A stretch of 64,000 bases of DNA from Halomonas sp. 7T. GTDB taxonomy: Bacteria > Pseudomonadota > Gammaproteobacteria > Pseudomonadales > Halomonadaceae. Where the stretch lies: NCBI RefSeq assembly GCF_025643255.1, contig NZ_CP087112.1:372001-436000 (forward strand), given 5' to 3'. A model generated the notes under the pieces. It made no database searches and was not told where the DNA came from. It saw nothing but the letters and a program-made list of their open reading frames with translations. The position numbers were made by a program, and so were the translations under genes. Every line of letters starts with the position of its first letter. The first letter of the stretch is position 1. Below, piece by piece: positions 27,205 through 36,961 of this stretch.

Positions 27205-27891
27205 TTATGGACAGCTAGGTGGTGTGGTGGTGCTAGAAAAACCGAGTTGACTAAACCAAGCGGTGGCATTGCCGCCTGCATTATCGCCATCGCTCATTAA
27301 CGCGATGCCGTTGATCTGGCTGGGGCTGCTGCCGAAAAGTGCCTGATAATCAGTGCGAACGTCACGCACCTCTGCTACCCAGTCACCCACGTCATCGTTG
27401 CCACTTCGCAGCGCCATTAATTGAGCGCGGCTGGTAAACGCATTTGACCAGGTCGCCCCCTGGGGTTGCGTTGACGCCCATACGTAGTTGACTGACTCCA
27501 CCTGCCACGGCAGCAAGCCTGTTTTGTGCGCCACGTATACGCGGGCTGGGTAGTCATCGCCTGCCTTGGTGGTTTCATCGATGCCTGGGTACGTAGCGCT
27601 TACCTGCCAGCACCAGTGAAGGTAGGGCGTTTCATTAAGGTCAATATCACGCTCTAAGTAGCGTGCTGATGCTTGGCCCTGTGCGCTGGCTTGCAGGACG
27701 CGCTGACCCGACTTTTCAACAATGTCGTAATAGGTTTCACCTGAAAAGCTACGCGTCGGCCAGGTCATGATCTGGTTAGGCGAGAAGTGAATAGCTTGGG
27801 CATGGGCTGCTGAAAACGGTATGACGAATAGGCACGTTATGGCAGCGGTTAGAGCCGTTAGGGTATTAGCGCGGCTCATGGGGGGCACCAT
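27205..27891 (-). CDS. DUF3047-family periplasmic protein
   Basis: 228 residues, or 224 from the second ATG at 27879. Residues to about 31 form a Sec signal peptide (ITCLFVIPFSAAHAQA). The mature part matches DUF3047: TWPTRSFSGETYYDIVE, then LHWCWQVSATYPG, then KAGDDYPARVYVAH, a beta-sandwich-like pattern with the conserved G-D-D-x-x-A-R. Function is unknown. It overlaps the end of the zinc-finger gene by 26 bases (or 14 from the second ATG), so the two are co-transcribed. Neither ATG has a good ribosome-binding site, suggesting coupling. Confidence 0.85.
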   Translation of the reverse strand: MVPPMSRANTLTALTAAITCLFVIPFSAAHAQAIHFSPNQIMTWPTRSFSGETYYDIVEKSGQRVLQASAQGQASARYLERDIDLNETPYLHWCWQVSATYPGIDETTKAGDDYPARVYVAHKTGLLPWQVESVNYVWASTQPQGATWSNAFTSRAQLMALRSGNDDVGDWVAEVRDVRTDYQALFGSSPSQINGIALMSDGDNAGGNATAWFSQLGFSSTTTPPSCP

Positions 27892-28081
27892 TGCTGTTTG
27901 GCTTGTCTAGCAATGCGGGGTGGTGGCGACCTATTTTATGTAACAGATCGAACTGACGAGCACAGGCTCGGCAGGCGCCACACATCGAGAGATGAAAGCC
28001 CAGTGACGCCTTCTCACGGAAAGTAAGCGTTCTATCCTGTTTGAGCGACATTAAGCGCGTCGCCTCACGGCACATGATCAT
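27866..28081 (-). CDS. Zinc-finger (zf-HC2) anti-sigma-like protein
   Basis: 71 residues. The pattern C4-x-E-A-T-R-L-M-S...L-x-F-H-L-S-M-C-G-A-C (HLSMCGAC near residue 30-37) is the zf-HC2 zinc-finger of ZAS-type anti-sigma factors. There is no membrane helix, so it is a soluble, short form. An ECF sigma factor lies two genes upstream on the same strand and is the natural candidate partner, although a thioredoxin-like gene and a 187-base gap separate them. AAGGAGAG precedes the start. Confidence 0.8.
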   Translation of the reverse strand: MIMCREATRLMSLKQDRTLTFREKASLGFHLSMCGACRACARQFDLLHKIGRHHPALLDKPNSNGAPHEPR

Positions 28082-28268
28082 AACGTGGCTCTCCTTTCAC
28101 CAGGCGAAAATCCTGCGCTGGCAGTGGATACTAACCGTCAGCGCTAAAGCATTTTGGTTTCAGTGTTTGCTAAGCGCTTTTCCTTACATCGACCCGCTAT
28201 TATAAAGGACAAAAGGCCTGAAAAAGGGCGGGTACCCCTAGAGGCTGAGGTTTAAAAACGTTACGACG

Positions 28269-28727
28269 CTAGCGACGTGAGGCCGTTAACTGTTCAAAAG
28301 ACGAGCGTAACGAAGGCGTGCTGGTGACCCCTTGAATCGTATCCTGGCGATTTCCTTGCCCATCAAAGAGCAGAATCGTTACGTGACCAACGCCATATTG
28401 GTTGGCAAAGTCAGCGCCTTTTGTGGTGTTAATGTCCACAATGCGCCAAGCGGGCGGAGCATCCATTTGAGCTAATGCGTCTTCAGCATTGGCTTTTAAG
28501 CGCTGGCAAAGCGGGCAGCTATGATCATGAACTTGTACGGCTACCGGCGTTCCACTGCCAAGAACGCTTAGGTCTGATTCGGCGCTGGCAGTGCGTTCGT
28601 TTACGATCAGCCAAGCGATAGGCACCGCTAGAAATGCAAGCGCTATCAGAAATTTGCGAGCTGCTGCTATTAATCGACGCTTAACTGGCTTGCGGCGAGG
28701 CGGTGCTTTTGGCGTTTTCTTTTTCAT
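28269..28727 (-). CDS. Membrane-anchored thioredoxin-fold protein with a CPLC motif
   Basis: 152 residues. A very basic N-terminus (KKKTPKAPPRRKPVKRR) and one membrane helix (about 25-43) place the rest in the periplasm. The domain (about 60-145) has a redox motif Cys71-Pro-Leu-Cys74 in HDHSCPLCQRL and the strand GVGHVTILLFDGQG, where thioredoxins have a cis-Pro before Thr; here it is Val. It could act in thiol-disulfide exchange or sensing. The ATG is one base after the sigma-factor stop, so it is in the same operon and may relay redox state to that sigma system. Confidence 0.75.
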   Translation of the reverse strand: MKKKTPKAPPRRKPVKRRLIAAARKFLIALAFLAVPIAWLIVNERTASAESDLSVLGSGTPVAVQVHDHSCPLCQRLKANAEDALAQMDAPPAWRIVDINTTKGADFANQYGVGHVTILLFDGQGNRQDTIQGVTSTPSLRSSFEQLTASRR

Positions 28728-28728
28728 T

Positions 28729-29295
28729 CTATGTTAACCACCCTTTTTCGATACAGGCGCGTAGCTTCAACCTAGCGCGGTGTAGCATCACCCAGCAGTT
28801 AGCATCGCTTAGCGAAAGTGCGTCGCAAATTTCCTGGGTGGTGAGCCCCATAAGTTCACGCATCGTAAATACGCGGGCTGTGCTGTCGGGTAGTACCAGT
28901 AAACAGGTGTCTAGTAGTTTCCAAAAGGAGGCGTTTTCAAGTACTTGGTCTGGATCACCCCAGGATTGAGGCTTGTGAGCCGGTTGCCAACGCCCATTAT
29001 CTTGAAACAGATTCTCGAAAGCGTCCTCATCGCTTTTTTCATCGTCTTGCCAAGAACAGTAACGTCGTTCGTAGCGTATACGCTCAAGAATTTTGTTTTT
29101 TAAAATGCCAAATACCCAGGTTTCAAACGCCGAACGCCCAGCGAAAGCGTCGTGCTTCTCCAGTGCGACGATGAGGGTGTCTTGAACCGTGTCTTCAGCG
29201 GCAGCACTATCTCGCAACTGCAACCGTGCAAACGCAATCAGTTTCGGCCTTAGGGCGGCGATATGGCGTTCAATGGAAAGAGTGTCAGTGTTCAC
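28729..29295 (-). CDS. ECF-type RNA polymerase sigma factor
   Basis: 188 residues. Sigma region 2 spans about 15-85: LRDSAAAEDTVQDTLIVALEKHDAFAGRSAFETWVFGILKNKILERIR is the classical core-binding and -10 recognition part. A linker with acidic residues is followed by region 4 (about 125-180: LLVLPDSTARVFTMRELMGLTTQEICDALSLSDANCWVMLHRARLKLR). Its regulon is unknown. Immediately downstream is a CPLC thioredoxin-like gene, then a zf-HC2 anti-sigma-like gene. No autoregulated promoter motif could be assigned by eye. Confidence 0.92.
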   Translation of the reverse strand: MNTDTLSIERHIAALRPKLIAFARLQLRDSAAAEDTVQDTLIVALEKHDAFAGRSAFETWVFGILKNKILERIRYERRYCSWQDDEKSDEDAFENLFQDNGRWQPAHKPQSWGDPDQVLENASFWKLLDTCLLVLPDSTARVFTMRELMGLTTQEICDALSLSDANCWVMLHRARLKLRACIEKGWLT

Positions 29296-30218: not shown

Positions 30219-30923
30219 ATGTCTAAAGAACAGCAAAAACGCCGTAAGTTACTCAGTAAACTGCGTCTGAAAATGAGTTATACCGCGCCTGTTTTAGCAC
30301 TGGTGGCGGGGGGTGTGACGTTACAAGCCGTTGCCAACAGCCAGGCGGTGAATGCCTATGGCGAAGCCCCTACAACGCTGCTGTTGGCTAGCCATCACGC
30401 TGAGGCCCAAGGCGAGGCGGAAGCAGAGGGAGAGGCTGAAGGTGACGCCCAGGGTGAAGGTGAAGCGCAAGCTGAAGGTGAGGCAGAAGGTGAAGCCCAG
30501 GCCGAGGCTGGCGCGCCAGCCAATGCGCGTACACAAGCCGTGTCGCGGCCGGGTGGCTACGTGCCCGGTTACGACGAAAGCGGTAATAACCCCGTCTCGT
30601 TGGTCGAGCGGGGGAGAGCGCTCTTTAACGATTCTTCCTTGAGCAGTAATGGTCTTTCCTGTGCCAGCTGCCACGGTGCCGATGGTCAGTCGGGCTATCA
30701 GGACACCTTTAATCAGCCTTATCCTCATGCCGTTGCGATGGGCACCAATATGTTTGGTATGGAAACAGTGCATGCCGATGAGATGGTGCAGCTGTGTATG
30801 GTAGCGCCCATGGAAGCAGAGCCACTCGATTGGGAGTCGGACGAGTTAGCGGCCCTGGCAGCCTACGTGGTGAGCATCCAGCAAAAATTTGCGGGGGAAG
30901 CGGACGGCCACTGCGATAACTAG
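30219..30923 (+). CDS. Exported c-type cytochrome with a Glu-Gly-Ala repeat tail segment
   Basis: 234 residues from ATG 30219 (AGAGG upstream; GTG 30210 is inside that site). Residues 1-about 40 are a signal region (KRRKLLSKLRLKMSYTAPVLALVAGG). Residues 61-98 are a low-complexity run of Ala, Glu, Gly and Gln in which EGEA/AEGE-type units repeat. Residues about 125-225 form a monoheme class I cytochrome c with CASCH (148-152) and probable distal Met in the VAPMEAEPLDW region. The first 60 residues and the tail closely match the 86-residue peptide encoded at 33063-33323. It is presumably a periplasmic electron carrier whose tail is handled by the neighbouring ligase system. Confidence 0.88.
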   Translation: MSKEQQKRRKLLSKLRLKMSYTAPVLALVAGGVTLQAVANSQAVNAYGEAPTTLLLASHHAEAQGEAEAEGEAEGDAQGEGEAQAEGEAEGEAQAEAGAPANARTQAVSRPGGYVPGYDESGNNPVSLVERGRALFNDSSLSSNGLSCASCHGADGQSGYQDTFNQPYPHAVAMGTNMFGMETVHADEMVQLCMVAPMEAEPLDWESDELAALAAYVVSIQQKFAGEADGHCDN

Positions 30924-30985
30924 CAGGAAACAGCCATGCGTGGTAGGCGGCTTGTTGGGCTAAAGGGGCAACTCGGCAAGCCGCA

Positions 30986-31216
30986 GTGTGTGGTAAGGAT
31001 AATTGTGTCGAGCAGATATCGGGTGTTTTCTTACTTGCCTACGGCATTTTTAGGTTTGCCGTGGAGTTTGTTCGCCTCACCGGTGCGCATTTGGGTTTTA
31101 TCGCCTTTGAGTGGGTCACGATGGGCCATTTACTGACACTACCTATGTTACTGGGTGGGGCGGCACTGATCGTATGGTCGCGTTCCCAGCCTGTTGCTAG
31201 CGTTAAAGGAGCTTAA
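30986..31216 (+). pseudogene. C-terminal fragment of prolipoprotein diacylglyceryl transferase (Lgt)
   Basis: Up to 76 codons from a GTG; the frame is open from about 30947. Residues 10-70 read ISGVFLLAYGIFRFAVEFVR...FEWVTMGHLLTLPMLLGGAALIVW, which is the last part of Lgt (the YGxxRFxxEFxR motif and the final helix). The N-terminal two thirds of Lgt, including its catalytic His/Arg region, are absent, so it cannot transfer diacylglycerol. It is likely a gene remnant captured between the cytochrome and the L,D-transpeptidase. It could alternatively be a small two-helix membrane protein that is still translated. Confidence 0.65.
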
Positions 31217-31218
31217 GC

Positions 31219-32283
31219 ATGATGAGCTTAATGAACACCAGTACGCGCCGTGTTTTTTTAAAAAAGAGCGTGATCGCTGTATGCGGTTTAGCCACCGTGA
31301 GTGTGTCGACATGGCCCTTATTAGCACAAGGCAGTGAGGAGGATATGCCTGACAACCATTACCCTCTTCCCGAAAAGGGCGATATTATCGGCCAAGATTA
31401 TCAGGTAGTAGCCAATCAAGACGATACGCTCGTTGATATTGCCCGTGCACATAACGTGGGCTATGAGGAGATTCTTTCTGCGAACCCAGAAGTAAGTGTG
31501 TGGATGCCGGGAGAGGGGACCGCTGTGACCATCCCTCGGCGCCATATCTTACCTAACGAGGCGCGTACGGGGATTGTGATTAACGTCGCAGAGCTCAGGC
31601 TATATTACTATCCTGAGGTCAAACCAGGAGAAACGCCCTGGGTTGAAACCTACCCTATTGGGATTGGTCGTGAAGGCTACAACACGCCACTTGGCATTAC
31701 CAAAACAACCATTCGCTTAGAGAATCCGGCGTGGTATCCGCCCCGCTCTATGCGTGAGGAAGCCGCTGAGCGGGGAGACCCTGCTCCGGCGGTGGTGCCA
31801 CCTGGCCCTGACAATCCGTTAGGTGAGCATGCGATTTTATTGGATATTCCTGGCTACTTGATTCATGGCACTAATCAGCCTGATGGTATTGGCATGCGCG
31901 CTAGCCGAGGCTGCATACGCATGTACCCAGAGGATATCAGCTCAATATTTGATAACGTGCCCAGCGGCACCCAGGTCAACATTATTGACCAGCCCGTCAA
32001 AGTGGGGGCCAGTGAAGAGGGCGAAGCCTATGTGCAGGTCTTTAAAACGGTTGATAGCGATAAGGTCGGTGTTGATGCATTGAAAGCGATGCTTCGCTTG
32101 CGGCTGTTGGCGTCTGAGGACAGCCTCGCTGAGCTGGATGATCGTCAGTTACAGGCGCTATTTGATAATCCGGATGATCAAATAGCAGCGTTATCGTCAT
32201 TTCATCAAGCGCCGGATGAACGCGAAGAAGAAGCGGCGAGTATGGATATTTATCAAAGAGTAAGCCAGGCAACAGTTAGATAA
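31219..32283 (+). CDS. L,D-transpeptidase (YkuD) with LysM, Tat-type signal
   Basis: 354 residues. The N-terminus TRRVFLKKSVIAVCGLA is a twin-arginine-type signal. A LysM-like domain (about 58-107) binds peptidoglycan. The YkuD domain (about 117-257) has His216 in IHGTN and catalytic Cys232 in SRGCIRM. It resembles ErfK/YbiS-type enzymes that make 3-3 crosslinks or attach proteins to peptidoglycan. AAAGGAG sits seven bases before ATG 31219. It follows the Lgt fragment by two bases and may be on the cytochrome transcript. A Tat signal is unusual for this family. Confidence 0.92.
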   Translation: MMSLMNTSTRRVFLKKSVIAVCGLATVSVSTWPLLAQGSEEDMPDNHYPLPEKGDIIGQDYQVVANQDDTLVDIARAHNVGYEEILSANPEVSVWMPGEGTAVTIPRRHILPNEARTGIVINVAELRLYYYPEVKPGETPWVETYPIGIGREGYNTPLGITKTTIRLENPAWYPPRSMREEAAERGDPAPAVVPPGPDNPLGEHAILLDIPGYLIHGTNQPDGIGMRASRGCIRMYPEDISSIFDNVPSGTQVNIIDQPVKVGASEEGEAYVQVFKTVDSDKVGVDALKAMLRLRLLASEDSLAELDDRQLQALFDNPDDQIAALSSFHQAPDEREEEAASMDIYQRVSQATVR

Positions 32284-32296
32284 TGAGAGCACTGTA

Positions 32297-32328
32297 GGCA
32301 CCTTCATGCGTTTGGAGGTGCTTTCGTT
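32297..32328 (+). terminator. Rho-independent terminator after the L,D-transpeptidase
   Basis: Eight-bp stem gcaccttc (32298-32305) with ggaggtgc (32314-32321), one G-U pair and an 8-nt loop, followed by tttcgtta. Confidence 0.75.
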
Positions 32329-32379
32329 ATTCAACACAACGTAGCGCTGTGTCTCTATTTGACGGTGGTGCCTTCATCG

Positions 32380-32988
32380 CTAAAGCGCTGTGCGCTGCTG
32401 TTCCCAAAAGCGCAACGTAGAAGGATGTACGCCGAAGTCGCTGGGGAGCACAATATCCAGTTGGTCACAGAGCAGGCTCAGCAGTGCCATGTGGTGAATG
32501 CTATGGCTGGTTAAAAACGCAAGCTCGCGACCTAGACTAGAGGGCAGCGGCAGCGCGTTTACAGGCGGCGTATGCCCTGGTTCTTCGACGGGGTAGCAAA
32601 GTATCAGCAGTGTATCGTGGGGCGTTGTTGACAGAGCTTTTAAACCTGCCTGCAGCTCATGTAGACGCTGTCGTGCCTGAACAGGGTTGTTTTCCAGAGC
32701 CGCTTCCCGCTGGCGATGTTCATAATCCAACGATGCCGTGGATTGAGAGGTTTCTAGGGAGGGGGCTGGAGAAAGTTCTGGCGCATCTATCAGCGTCTGA
32801 TAGTGCTCCAATATATGGCGGACATGCTTACCCAGCGATTGCGTTTGCCTGCTGCCCACTAGGCGTTGGTAGGTTGGCGCAGGGGTGCGTTCCAGTAACC
32901 TGGCGAGCTGTTCCAGCGCTTGCAGGTTTTCATCGACCAGCAGCGCCGTGGCGCTTGAACCTGACTTTAACGGTGTCGGCGAGGGCAT
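32380..32988 (-). CDS. DinB-fold protein in the TTL/peptide operon
   Basis: 202 residues, no signal peptide. Two His-bearing helices suggest the DinB/YfiT four-helix metal-binding fold: SLGKHVRHILEHYQTLI (about 51-67) and ELAFLTSHSIHHMALLSLL (about 155-173). Members of the fold use three His to bind zinc or nickel and act as thiol transferases or hydrolases, but many are uncharacterised. It is the third gene on the minus strand after the TTL-like ligase and the Glu-Gly peptide (74-base gap, own AGGAG), so a role in the same pathway is inferred. Confidence 0.7.
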   Translation of the reverse strand: MPSPTPLKSGSSATALLVDENLQALEQLARLLERTPAPTYQRLVGSRQTQSLGKHVRHILEHYQTLIDAPELSPAPSLETSQSTASLDYEHRQREAALENNPVQARQRLHELQAGLKALSTTPHDTLLILCYPVEEPGHTPPVNALPLPSSLGRELAFLTSHSIHHMALLSLLCDQLDIVLPSDFGVHPSTLRFWEQQRTAL

Positions 32989-33062
32989 AACGGGCTCCTG
33001 TTAAGCTGTGCCGGCGATTAAACCGGCACAGGGCACTTGGCCGTGTAAGGAAAAGGGGATAT

Positions 33063-33323
33063 TTAACCGGCTTCAGCGCCGCCTTCACCCTCGGCCTCTC
33101 CTTCAGCCTCACCTTCTCCCTCTCCCTCGGCTTCACCTTCTGCATGGTGGGCTTCAGCCAGCATCAACGGCGCTTCTTGCATATTGGTAAATGCGTCTGT
33201 GGGCTCGTCAGCGTGTGCCTGAAAGGCAAGGCCGCTAGCCACTAGCGCAAGCGCCGGTGCGGTGTAACCAAATTGGCGGCTTAAACGGCTAAGTAGACGA
33301 CGTTTGGCTTCTTGTTGAGACAT
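33063..33323 (-). CDS. Small exported Ala-Glu-Gly-repeat peptide, candidate ligase substrate
   Basis: 86 residues, with AGGAG eight bases before ATG. Residues 1-about 38 form a signal region (AKRRLLSRLSRQFGYTAPALALVASG, probable cleavage after AHA). Residues 39-60 are a linker ending in EAHH. Residues 61-86 are almost only Ala, Glu and Gly in AEGE/GEGE units. The N-terminal module and the HH-AE junction closely match residues 1-61 of the cytochrome at 30219-30923. The acidic Glu-Gly tail resembles the C-terminal tails of tubulin, the substrate of the TTL family, and the gene lies 54 bases after a TTL-like enzyme. I infer a precursor whose tail is modified. Confidence 0.8.
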   Translation of the reverse strand: MSQQEAKRRLLSRLSRQFGYTAPALALVASGLAFQAHADEPTDAFTNMQEAPLMLAEAHHAEGEAEGEGEGEAEGEAEGEGGAEAG

Positions 33324-33377
33324 GATGTTTCTCCTGAATCATGGCGTTTGATGGCGCCGAATGGCGCAACTTCTCCG

Positions 33378-35714
33378 CTATACGGCGGCGCGAGAAGGGG
33401 TTGAATGAGGTGATGGATTAAGCCAGGGCGTTAATGTTTGGCGAATGGTGAGCGTTGAGTTACCCAAGTGTGCGCGCTGCGGCTGTTGGCAAAGCTGTCG
33501 CAGTGCTTCTAAGGCGGCAGGGCTTAAACGCTGTTGCTGCTCTTGTGCAAAGGGCAGTAGCGCGCCTAATAGGTCAAGGAAGCTGGGCACGTTTGAGCCG
33601 GGTGCTGCTGCGTCGCTTAGCCATAGAATGCCCGCAAAGCGCTGGGTGCGTGAGGGCGTTAAAGGGGTATCGGCGAGCGGCAGATTAAGCGGCTCGATAA
33701 CGCCGGGCGTGTTAAGCGCTAAACGCGCGCCACGCGAAAGCGTCAGCCCTTGCTGCTCAGCGGCTTCACCCAGGGCGTTAATGGCCGTGAGGTAGGCATC
33801 ACCCTCGGGTAGCAGGCAGACGATATGCTGCTGGTCGTCACTTAATAGGGCAACATCCAGCACAAGATGCTCTTGGCGTGCGGCGCTACGTAAGCAGAAA
33901 CGGGTGATGGCCGGCAGAATGTCATCGATAGATAAACGTGCGCTAACCACATGGCTGTCGGTGGTTAAACAGTAGCCGTTAGCGCTCTCTAAAAGGTGCA
34001 ACGACTCACCTAGTGGGGTGGCATCGGTCGTGGTTAGTGGTGGAGAAAGTGGTGGAGAAAGCAGCGGAGAAAGCGCCGATGTGATGCGCTCGGCAACAGG
34101 GCCTGCCGGTGCGGTAATCGGCCAACGGCGTTGGTCGAAGGTCAGCTGGCCGTGCCAGGTGACTGGCATTTCACGCGCTTGCTGCTTTTGGGCGGCTGTT
34201 TCAGTACTGTGACTAGGCGCCAGCAGACCGTGTTTCCACCACGGTGTTAACGTTGCCCAGAGATCGCTTTCCAATTGGGCCGTTGTAGCTTGGCCGCCAC
34301 TGGCGGCATGCAAGTGGCTAACAATACTGTCAATCGGCTCGCCTTCACTCACTAACAGCCAGATAAGCGCTGCGCTGTCGTTAAGCTGGTAATAAAGCCC
34401 GCTAACATGGTGGTAGAGCGCCAAGCGGTCATCGTCGATGAGTTCACTGACGTCGTTGGCGCGGAACGACATCGCTTGGCGCGCTGCTGCGTGGGCTAAG
34501 CGATAATCTAACAGGCTAGGTAGCCCGATAACCGCCAGATACGCTTGGGTAAGCAGCGGGTTATGTGCTGGGTAGAGCGGTACGAAGCCACCGGCTCGCT
34601 GGTGCTCTGCAGCCAGTGCTGCTGCATCAAATTCAGCCTCATGTGCTGGTTGCGTCAAGCCAACGAGCTCGATCATATCGCGCACCAAGCCGCCTTTGAC
34701 GCTCTTTTCAATGTCGCCACCGTGCTCTGGTTTGGCGCATATCCCCAGTGAAGGGCTTAGATTGCACTCCAAAATCCAGGGCTTTAACTGATCATCTACC
34801 AGGCAGTCCAAGCCAATCAGCTCATAGCAGCCGCGCGGGTCTGCACCTGCTGCTTGAGAACGCGTACGCATGGCGTCTACCCCAGACAGGGCGGTGAGCG
34901 TGGCTAAGTCATACAGCTGGTCAAACAGCGCGTTGTCATCATGGCCTTGCTCACGTAGCCAGTGGCGGTAGCGTTCCAGATCAATAAACTCCACGGGGAT
35001 CTCGGCATTCAGGTTGAGCGCGTTGATATCCGGGTTGGTTAACTGGCTAAACGGGTTGTCGACGTCGTCAGGGTCCCATGGTTCAGAGGCCAGCTTGGCA
35101 AAGCCCTGGTCATACAGGTAGACACGCAGCGGATCGATACTGGCAACCAGCATATAAAGTCGTAATACGTATTTATGCCCGCGAATGGTATGTGGGTTAG
35201 CCACGTACTCCTGCACTAGCCAGTTGGCTAAAAGAGGCGCCTTGGCGGGGTCTTTAAGTACTTGAACACCTTGGCCTTTTGAGGCGTTGGTGGGTTTTAA
35301 AATCCAGCGCTTATCAGGGTTAGCCGCTGCGTCTTCTATTAAAGCGGGGTAATCGTGGGGCATTTCATAGGCCCGAGGGAAAAAAGCCAGCCGTTGGGTG
35401 AAGGGGTGATCATTGCCAAAGTGACACCGCGTCCGTTCGCGTAGCGCGTTGAGGCTGGAGTGAAGCCGACTTTTAACGGTTAACGATGCGTTGCCAGGAA
35501 TGTGGTTCATCTTGGCGCTAGGAGAGGCAGCTTTAAACGCTGTGTTGGTCGGCATGCCCGTTACCCAGGCGGCTTGCCAATGCTTTTCGTCACCTTCTGC
35601 CCAGCCATGTGCTTCCAGCGTTTGGCGAAAAAAGTGATCCTGCTCGGCATGGCGTTTGCCGCTTAGCCAAAATGCAGGCGCTGAGGCCGGTGGGCTAGAA
35701 GCTGAGGTGGGCAT
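33378..35714 (-). CDS. Tubulin-tyrosine-ligase-like ATP-grasp enzyme fused to a PqqD-like domain
   Basis: 778 residues. Residues about 20-355 match the TTL family: KMNHIPGNASLT (68-79), WILKPTNASKGQGV with Lys140 and Lys146, VQEYV hinge (167-171), GHKYVLRLYMLVASIDPLRVYLY (179-201), LTNPDIN, and the metal site Glu316-x-Asn318 in ILECNLSPSLG. Such enzymes use ATP to add an amino acid to a carboxyl group of a protein. Residues about 415-500 look like PqqD, a precursor-peptide-binding module (GLYYQLNDSAALIWLLVSEGEPIDSI). The last 270 residues are unrecognised and contain no P-loop. A good AAGGAG precedes ATG. It heads an operon with the Glu-Gly peptide and a DinB-fold protein. Confidence 0.85.
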   Translation of the reverse strand: MPTSASSPPASAPAFWLSGKRHAEQDHFFRQTLEAHGWAEGDEKHWQAAWVTGMPTNTAFKAASPSAKMNHIPGNASLTVKSRLHSSLNALRERTRCHFGNDHPFTQRLAFFPRAYEMPHDYPALIEDAAANPDKRWILKPTNASKGQGVQVLKDPAKAPLLANWLVQEYVANPHTIRGHKYVLRLYMLVASIDPLRVYLYDQGFAKLASEPWDPDDVDNPFSQLTNPDINALNLNAEIPVEFIDLERYRHWLREQGHDDNALFDQLYDLATLTALSGVDAMRTRSQAAGADPRGCYELIGLDCLVDDQLKPWILECNLSPSLGICAKPEHGGDIEKSVKGGLVRDMIELVGLTQPAHEAEFDAAALAAEHQRAGGFVPLYPAHNPLLTQAYLAVIGLPSLLDYRLAHAAARQAMSFRANDVSELIDDDRLALYHHVSGLYYQLNDSAALIWLLVSEGEPIDSIVSHLHAASGGQATTAQLESDLWATLTPWWKHGLLAPSHSTETAAQKQQAREMPVTWHGQLTFDQRRWPITAPAGPVAERITSALSPLLSPPLSPPLTTTDATPLGESLHLLESANGYCLTTDSHVVSARLSIDDILPAITRFCLRSAARQEHLVLDVALLSDDQQHIVCLLPEGDAYLTAINALGEAAEQQGLTLSRGARLALNTPGVIEPLNLPLADTPLTPSRTQRFAGILWLSDAAAPGSNVPSFLDLLGALLPFAQEQQQRLSPAALEALRQLCQQPQRAHLGNSTLTIRQTLTPWLNPSPHSTPSRAAV

Positions 35715-35977: not shown

Positions 35978-36961
35978 ATGATGCCATTATTATTGAAGTT
36001 GCCGCTGAAATGGGCAGTGGGCTGGCTGGGCGTACTCAGCTTAGCGGCCCATGCCCACGCACTTGAGTTGACGCCATTAGTGGATGCCCAGTGGTTGAAT
36101 GAGCACCTTGATAGCGAGGCGTTGGTAGTTATTGATGTTCGATCATCGATCGATAATGGTGGCGATGAAGATAGCTTTATCGAGGCGCGCATACCGGGTA
36201 GCCGCTACACCAGCTATACCGATGACGGCTGGCGTGAAACCCGCGATAGTGTCGCGGGTTTAATGCCAGAGGTGGGCGAGCTTGAACGATTGATTGGCAG
36301 CCTGGGGGTGGCGAACGATAGTGCCGTCGTGATCGTGCCCGCCGGTACAGGGGCGACTGACTTTGGCAGCGCGGCGCGGGTTTACTGGACGCTTAAAGTG
36401 CTTGGTCATGACGAGGTGGCTATCTTAAACGGCGGTTTTACAGGCTGGCAGCAGCAAGGGTTTGAAGTCGCTAGCGGTGAACCTGAAGGGTTTGAGACAG
36501 CCGAGTTTACAGCGGCTGCGCTGCGTGAAGAACTGATTGCTACTACCGAAGACGTTGAAGCCGCTCGTACCACACAGGCACAGCTAGTTGATGCGCGGCC
36601 AACGGACTATTTTATGGGCGATGCTAAGTCCCCTGCTGCTAGGGTGGCGGGCACGATACCGGGCGCACGCAGCCTTCCTCATCAAACGCATCTCAATAAT
36701 CAAAATGGTGCTTACTACTTAGACACGGACGGCTTGCAGTCACGTATTAATGCAGCCGACTTAGATAACCAGGAGCGTACGATCGCGTTCTGTAATACGG
36801 GGCACTGGGCCGCTACCGACTGGTTTGTACTCAGCGAAGTGGCCGGTTTTAGCAACATTGCGATGTACGATGGCTCAATGGCCGCGTGGACCATTAGCGA
36901 TTCGCGGCCGGTGCAGTTTGCCCGAGATGGGATAAGGCAAGTGCGGGAGCTGCTGAATTAA
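35978..36961 (+). CDS. Periplasmic two-domain rhodanese (sulfurtransferase)
   Basis: 327 residues. A signal peptide runs to about residue 28 (LLSLAAHAHA-LE). Two rhodanese domains follow: 35-155 (VVIDVRSSID...RIPGSRY), inactive-type without a Cys loop, and 175-305, with the active loop Cys271 in AFCNTGHWAATDWFVL. It should transfer sulfane sulfur, for example from thiosulfate to cyanide or thiols, in the periplasm. The active loop CNTGHWA is longer and less basic than in classical TST. A 19-base palindrome lies in its leader and a TetR gene follows. Confidence 0.9.
   Translation: MMPLLLKLPLKWAVGWLGVLSLAAHAHALELTPLVDAQWLNEHLDSEALVVIDVRSSIDNGGDEDSFIEARIPGSRYTSYTDDGWRETRDSVAGLMPEVGELERLIGSLGVANDSAVVIVPAGTGATDFGSAARVYWTLKVLGHDEVAILNGGFTGWQQQGFEVASGEPEGFETAEFTAAALREELIATTEDVEAARTTQAQLVDARPTDYFMGDAKSPAARVAGTIPGARSLPHQTHLNNQNGAYYLDTDGLQSRINAADLDNQERTIAFCNTGHWAATDWFVLSEVAGFSNIAMYDGSMAAWTISDSRPVQFARDGIRQVRELLN

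Follow-up and report, generated by a model that had tools for sequence, protein, structure and literature searches.

All TTLL enzymes, relatives of tubulin tyrosine ligase (TTL), share an ATP-grasp fold; polyglutamylation by members of this family is part of the eukaryotic tubulin code, whereas TTLL10 is a polyglycylase. Bacterial TTLs may be mentioned in a survey of ATP-grasp amidoligases by comparative genomics that dates from 2009. Here we describe a locus of Halomonas sp. 7T in which a TTLL-type ligase is fused to a PqqD-like domain and accompanied by two exported proteins with Glu-rich repeats, a short peptide and a c-type cytochrome. The locus lies within a 64,000-nucleotide stretch (contig NZ_CP087112.1, positions 372,001 to 436,000; the window) of a 3.63-Mb genome. 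We propose, with a probability of about 0.62, that it encodes a leader-guided protein-glutamylation system, in which the TTLL6-like enzyme acts on the Glu-repeat peptide and the cytochrome.

Several described systems resemble this locus in part. The Halomonas enzyme has the ATP-grasp fold, the catalytic residues and a Glu/Gly-rich candidate acceptor in common with the tubulin polyglutamylases TTLL6, TTLL7 and TTLL11, but it is bacterial, carries fused PqqD and HprK-like domains, and its proposed acceptors are exported proteins rather than tubulin. In the lasso and LPP systems, leaders are bound by PqqD-family recognition elements (RREs) of ribosomally synthesized and post-translationally modified peptides (RiPPs), such as TbiB1, TfuB1, PbaB1 and LppB. 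The present domain shares with them the family, an Asn at the site of LppB Asn33 and a YxxPxL-type leader in its proposed substrates, and differs in being fused to a TTLL-type ligase, in a leader that doubles as an export signal, and in substrates that would include a cytochrome. General scans of the window proteins turned up neither a lasso cyclase nor a B2 protease, although no dedicated search for them was made. As in graspetide systems, an ATP-grasp ligase adjoins a ribosomally made precursor that has a leader and a core; unlike in those systems, the ligase is of another ATP-grasp family and the core is poor in Lys, Ser and Thr. Bacterial protein glutamylation is known from RimK (PMC4431377) and SidJ (PMC6858067, PMC8548325), which are not TTL-family enzymes with a leader-binding domain and whose substrates are unrelated. 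Among the matches listed in searches of open-access literature the present combination is not described, and an earlier description in subscription papers, which lay outside the scope, is possible; the word "tubulin" is absent from the main texts of two RRE papers (PMC7470986, PMC12710340).

Results

The fusion enzyme, the peptide and a DinB-like gene follow one another on the minus strand, and the cytochrome gene lies 2 kb further on the plus strand:

33378..35714, minus strand: TTL-PqqD-(HprK-like) fusion enzyme, 778 amino acids, with relatives in the 80 loci described below
34527..35687, minus strand: TTLL6-like ATP-grasp ligase domain, residues ~10-396
34215..34472, minus strand: PqqD-like, putatively leader-binding (RRE) domain, residues ~415-500
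33390..34172, minus strand: HprK/PEPCK-fold domain at the C-terminus, lacking a P-loop, residues ~515-775
33063..33323, minus strand: exported Glu-Gly-repeat peptide of 86 amino acids, proposed substrate, with 27 homologues
33210..33323, minus strand: leader/signal segment of the peptide, residues 1-38, with a YTAPAL motif
33066..33146, minus strand: Glu-Gly tail of that peptide, with Glu at 11 of its 27 positions
32380..32988, minus strand: operon partner, a DinB-like protein of four helices with conserved His residues
30219..30923, plus strand: second proposed substrate, a c-type cytochrome that shares the leader and has a Glu-repeat linker inside the chain
30396..30512, plus strand: Ala-Glu-Gly-Gln linker within the cytochrome (residues 60-98), containing 13 Glu
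30660..30674, plus strand: heme-binding CASCH motif of the cytochrome

Co-occurrence of the enzyme and the Glu-repeat proteins

Relatives of the enzyme were collected from one genome per species with a profile of 16 sequences, and the best 80 of 94 loci, from Halomonadaceae, Marinobacter, Aquisalimonas and other gammaproteobacteria, were analyzed. Recurrent linkage of enzyme and peptide in other genomes had been set beforehand as the point on which the sequence-only reading would stand or fall, and it was found: using a leader profile built from 37 leaders out of these loci, we detected a leader open reading frame (ORF) in 79 of the 80, giving the RiPP-type layout of a conserved leader and variable core beside the enzyme. 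The single locus without one (L075) stops at a contig end. In 76 loci the leader ORF lies on the same strand, at most 1.3 kb downstream, and reversed ORFs of the same loci gave no match among 11,284. Every one of the 115 leader ORFs contains at least two E-x-E motifs, and 31 of them, from 31 loci, have a CxxCH motif after the leader. A stricter Glu-repeat filter retained 74 of the 80 loci, or 75 of 83 when the window pieces L001, L082 and L083 are included.

Presence and absence were compared in 151 genomes of the family. The enzyme profile matches 25 of them, along the greater part of its length in 24 and over the first 204 positions only in G387; a second leader profile, made from 23 leaders of the window and the 80 loci, also matches 25 at E < 1e-10, matches at E ~0.007-0.01 (G374, G459 and a third match in G415) being excluded. 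Enzyme and leader occur together in 24 genomes, a leader cytochrome alone in one, the enzyme alone in one and neither in 125 (Fisher p 1.3e-25, a value that ignores relatedness). Within the genus of the window the enzyme is patchy (6 of the 25 members listed), and the leader proteins follow it. Possible decay in single lineages is seen as the truncated, leaderless fusion of G387 (L095) and as an in-frame stop codon within the match in G405.

More distant samples gave a similar picture. A Pfam TTL match at E<=0.001 occurs in 107 of 369 genomes of the class, with few genuine TTL domains: besides the system's own enzyme ten were accepted, and the remainder were dropped, from the table only, as short ATP-grasp segments. 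Three of these extend into a PqqD domain, and each has a Glu-repeat leader peptide beside it; L085 apparently duplicates the record of L080 and is not counted as an independent case, and L086 matches the enzyme profile just to position 474, inside that domain. None of the seven TTLs without PqqD (317-373 amino acids) has a leader or Glu-Gly ORF in the fetched flanks, which for L087 end ~1 kb behind the gene. These PqqD-less gammaproteobacterial proteins (L087-L093) are a group to note in themselves, L087 being nearest to the fusion profile (3e-50). A draw of 398 genomes across the phylum contained the fusion in 3. That enzyme and Glu-repeat proteins form one system is strongly supported.

The ligase domain and the likely reaction

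The enzyme had been read from its letters as a TTL-PqqD fusion with three named motifs, and profile searches bear this out. PF03133 matches at 170.4 bits (cut-off 20.1, E 6.6e-50) and PF05402 at 26.9 bits (cut-off 23.4, E 6.1e-6), and the motifs were located at residues 68-75 (KMNHIPGN), 140-149 (KPTNASKGQG) and 316-318 (E316-x-N318). The ATP-grasp fold and the Mg/ATP residues of the TTL/TTLL family are present, K140, E316 and N318 being kept in 76-77 of 77 aligned sequences (the window enzyme and 76 loci). By sequence and structure the closest relatives are the polyglutamylases TTLL6, TTLL7 and TTLL11, which share the fold over ~360 residues; TTL and 5vlq rank lower. Position 180 of TTLL6, a Gln in TTLL6-type elongases, is here Lys in 56 of 77 and Arg in 20 (one gap). 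With residues of non-elongase type at the initiator/elongator sites, the enzyme probably starts branches on main-chain glutamates.

Family, catalytic residues and a proposed substrate resembling tubulin tails all point to ligation of glutamate, and glutamylation is the best inference for the reaction. The same leader-guided enzyme and substrates could instead serve the addition of glycine, tyrosine, alanine or another amino acid; we consider this unlikely given the ranking of the polyglutamylases, even though the fold is common to all TTLL chemistries and most non-cytochrome repeat ORFs end in Gly.

In a further alternative the repeat proteins would work without any modification, beside an enzyme that has degenerated or moonlights, and the neighborhood would reflect joint regulation only. 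The C-terminal domain without a P-loop would suit it, but the invariant catalytic residues, the co-occurrence of leader and enzyme across genomes and a leader that fits the motif expected for a PqqD domain make it very improbable.

Probable leader recognition by the PqqD domain

Searched against PDB at E<=1, the PqqD-domain profile finds three proteins only, all of them lasso leader-binding proteins: TbiB1 (8.3e-7), TfuB1 (9.6e-6) and PbaB1 (0.31, not significant). Asn445, which aligns to PbaB1 Gly42, is present in 77 of 77 sequences, and residue 484 aligns to PbaB1 Gln79 (chain positions counted with an offset of 18). The corresponding residues of LppB are Asn33 and Asp70; its leader binding is nearly abolished in N33A and weakened in D70A, and both residues recur in many RREs of PQQ and lasso systems (PMC13381572).

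The leader, in turn, carries a motif of the YxxPxL type. Of 101 Glu-repeat ORFs, 100 keep the Pro in register, 76 have Tyr at -3 and 99 have Leu, Met or Phe at +2. In 67 sequences leader identity follows PqqD-domain identity, and the leader diverges at about the rate of that domain, more slowly than the C-terminal domain does. In all six loci whose leader has His for Tyr, Asp at residue 484 is replaced by Gln or Thr, a weak pairing that may reflect one clade. Motif and homology give good support to the PqqD domain as the probable reader of the YxxPxL leader.

The small peptide and the Glu-repeat tracts

The 86-residue peptide and the DinB-like ORF predicted downstream of the enzyme, on the same strand, were both confirmed. 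A pattern search of the genome DNA for (E-[A/G])3-E gave ten matches, all within the peptide and cytochrome genes, and none in the backwards control. The window tail uses mixed synonymous codons and is thus not a fresh product of DNA slippage. In 101 tracts, cut as low-complexity runs with E+G more than half, Glu makes up 41%, Ala 25%, Gly 25% and Lys 3%, and Glu tends to occupy every second place (0.82 at +2, 0.02 at +1). The missing hydrophobic residues are a consequence of the cutting rule and no finding. The tracts resemble the acidic tails of tubulin.

ATP-grasp enzymes acting on precursors with a conserved leader and a variable acidic core are the general layout of graspetides (PMC8939145), and the domain might accordingly crosslink the core internally through lactam or ester bonds. 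Some Marinobacter tracts do contain Lys. Nucleophilic side chains are nevertheless scarce (K 3.1%, S 1.5%, T 0.3% of 4,086 residues), the window tail, having none of them, is not a graspetide-type core, and the ATP-grasp domain is of TTLL type; crosslinking is the reading to which we give the least credence.

In some loci there is another kind of small Glu-repeat peptide, which has YAVP or YSVP in its leader and a start resembling GYYM/GYHM (L004 17360-17662, L006 15609-15827, L033 15566-15943, L051 10888-11163, L052 10859-11110).

The cytochrome

Using peptide residues 1-69 as query, we found the cytochrome at E 3.3e-11 (52% identity) and no third copy of the leader in the genome up to E 10. 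The cytochrome matches PF21342 above cut-off (1.7e-8), as a SoxA/TsdA-type cytochrome c domain would, but it has a single CxxCH and is preceded by the leader and the Glu-repeat linker. C148, A149, C151 and H152 are unchanged in 12 of 12 aligned cytochromes. The sequence-only reading was right about the shared leader and wrong about an Ala-Glu-Gly-Gln tail: residues 60-98 precede the CxxCH motif (148-152), so that a C-terminal tail is ruled out and the tract is an internal linker before the heme domain.

This placement bears on the reaction. Addition at the peptide end only, as by TTL, would suit the small peptides, which terminate in the Glu-Gly tract (C-terminal Gly in 47 of 75 non-cytochrome repeat ORFs, ...EAEG in 23). 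In the cytochrome, however, the heme domain follows the tract, and L031 and L079 have enzyme and cytochrome with no small peptide in the fetched flanks, which renders end-only ligation highly unlikely. A reaction common to the peptide, where the tract is terminal, and the cytochrome, where it is internal, must act on side chains. The earlier proposal that the enzyme modifies acidic tails is partly supported: the linkage of enzyme and candidate substrates recurs, and a shared reaction would be expected on internal Glu side chains and not at the C-terminus.

Among 71 homologues of the heme domain, a tract with at least 10 Glu/Gly precedes the heme motif in 30. Four of the other 41 retain the leader and a short Glu tract (P0161, P0162, P0168, P0177); among the rest are sequences with Cys-rich NPC repeats, sequences lacking a repeat and sequences that start late. 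Relatives with NPC(A/G)-type Cys-Pro repeats are found in L106/L116, L107/L117, L108/L118, L110/L119, L111/L120 and L112/L121. Small exported NPC-repeat peptides adjoin such cytochromes in L117, L118 and L121, from other gammaproteobacteria, and proteins that look alike by eye lie near them in L119 (5078-5815) and L121 (7737-8477). One heme-domain family with two repeat chemistries, each with a matching small peptide, speaks for the repeat as the working part.

The DinB-like partner and neighboring genes

The DinB fold assigned from the letters holds for the family, 11 of 12 aligned relatives matching DinB families (best 4.4e-8), with a weak match for the window protein itself (PF05163, 0.0068). 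H55, H58, H62, H162, H165 and H166 are invariant in 12 of 12, and sequence searches of solved structures gave nothing significant (best E 0.16, a designed protein). The cluster is present in 74 of the 80 loci. Four of the six loci without it are short or end near the enzyme (L050, L056, L068, L075); the other two, L031 and L079, also have no small peptide in the fetched flanks and retain the Glu-repeat cytochrome. This pattern suggests that the DinB-like protein accompanies the peptide, and that the cytochrome alone can accompany the enzyme.

Beside the system, 27205-29295 (minus strand) encodes an ECF (extracytoplasmic function) sigma factor (TIGR02943) together with a thioredoxin-like protein and an exported DUF3047-like protein; the sigma-factor cluster is close to the fusion gene in 54 of 80 loci. 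A rhodanese-type sulfurtransferase lies upstream of the enzyme (35978-36961, plus strand), its cluster recurring in 40 of 80. Behind the cytochrome, a 76-residue ORF (30986-31216, plus strand) resembles prolipoprotein diacylglyceryl transferase in the C-terminal part alone (positions 190-240 of the 240 in the profile) and is possibly a gene remnant. The four core proteins had no PADLOC match at E<=0.01 that would indicate a defense role, and a scan of viral contigs gave two pattern matches, neither of them a relative.

Discussion

In the mechanism we propose from paired motifs and co-occurrence, the PqqD-like domain would bind the YxxPxL leader inside the signal sequence of peptide and cytochrome, and this would place the acidic tract in the TTLL6-like active site. 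The ATP-grasp domain would activate the gamma-carboxyl of a Glu and join an amino acid to it, most likely glutamate. The modified chains would then be exported by Sec, the cytochrome receiving its heme there. The sequence-only reading had left modification before or after export open. Cytochromes of the c type acquire heme in the periplasm after Sec export, and ligation needs ATP; given these facts and a leader lying within the signal sequence, modification would much more probably precede export than follow it. The product would be a highly anionic periplasmic peptide together with an anionically tethered cytochrome; electrostatic tethering or docking, or binding of cations or metals, is a guess at its purpose.

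Several observations weigh against this proposal. Both the modification and the identity of the added amino acid are deduced from sequence, and TTLL10-type polyglycylases were not among the solved structures matched in the comparison. The figure of 79 in 80 loci is partly in-sample, and divergent leaders could escape the profiles. G485 has a leader cytochrome and no enzyme, G387 a truncated enzyme and no leader. Residue 484 is Asp in just 61% of sequences and otherwise E, Q, H, T, K or L; the leader Tyr gives way to other residues in 24 of 100 cases (12 of them Val), and in 12 loci Val-leader cytochromes adjoin Tyr-leader peptides. The leader also resembles a signal peptide, and export may explain part of its conservation. 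Finally, related heme domains occur with NPC repeats or repeat-free, so glutamylation is not required for the fold.

The fullest version of the proposal is a bacterial tail-glutamylation code, in which a TTLL6-like enzyme steered by a lasso-type leader-binding domain builds polyglutamate branches on exported repeats that resemble tubulin tails, including a cytochrome c tether; we give this an even chance. If glutamylation by this system is real, a bacterial TTLL-clade enzyme with a co-inherited acceptor would offer a simple genetic system for polyglutamylation chemistry and would bear on the origins of TTLL enzymes. It would also constitute a new enzyme class within leader-guided peptide modification, a RiPP-like class with a branched polyanion as product and possibly a working electron carrier as substrate, and would prompt one to ask what need an electron-carrying cytochrome has of a polyanionic linker that is modified.

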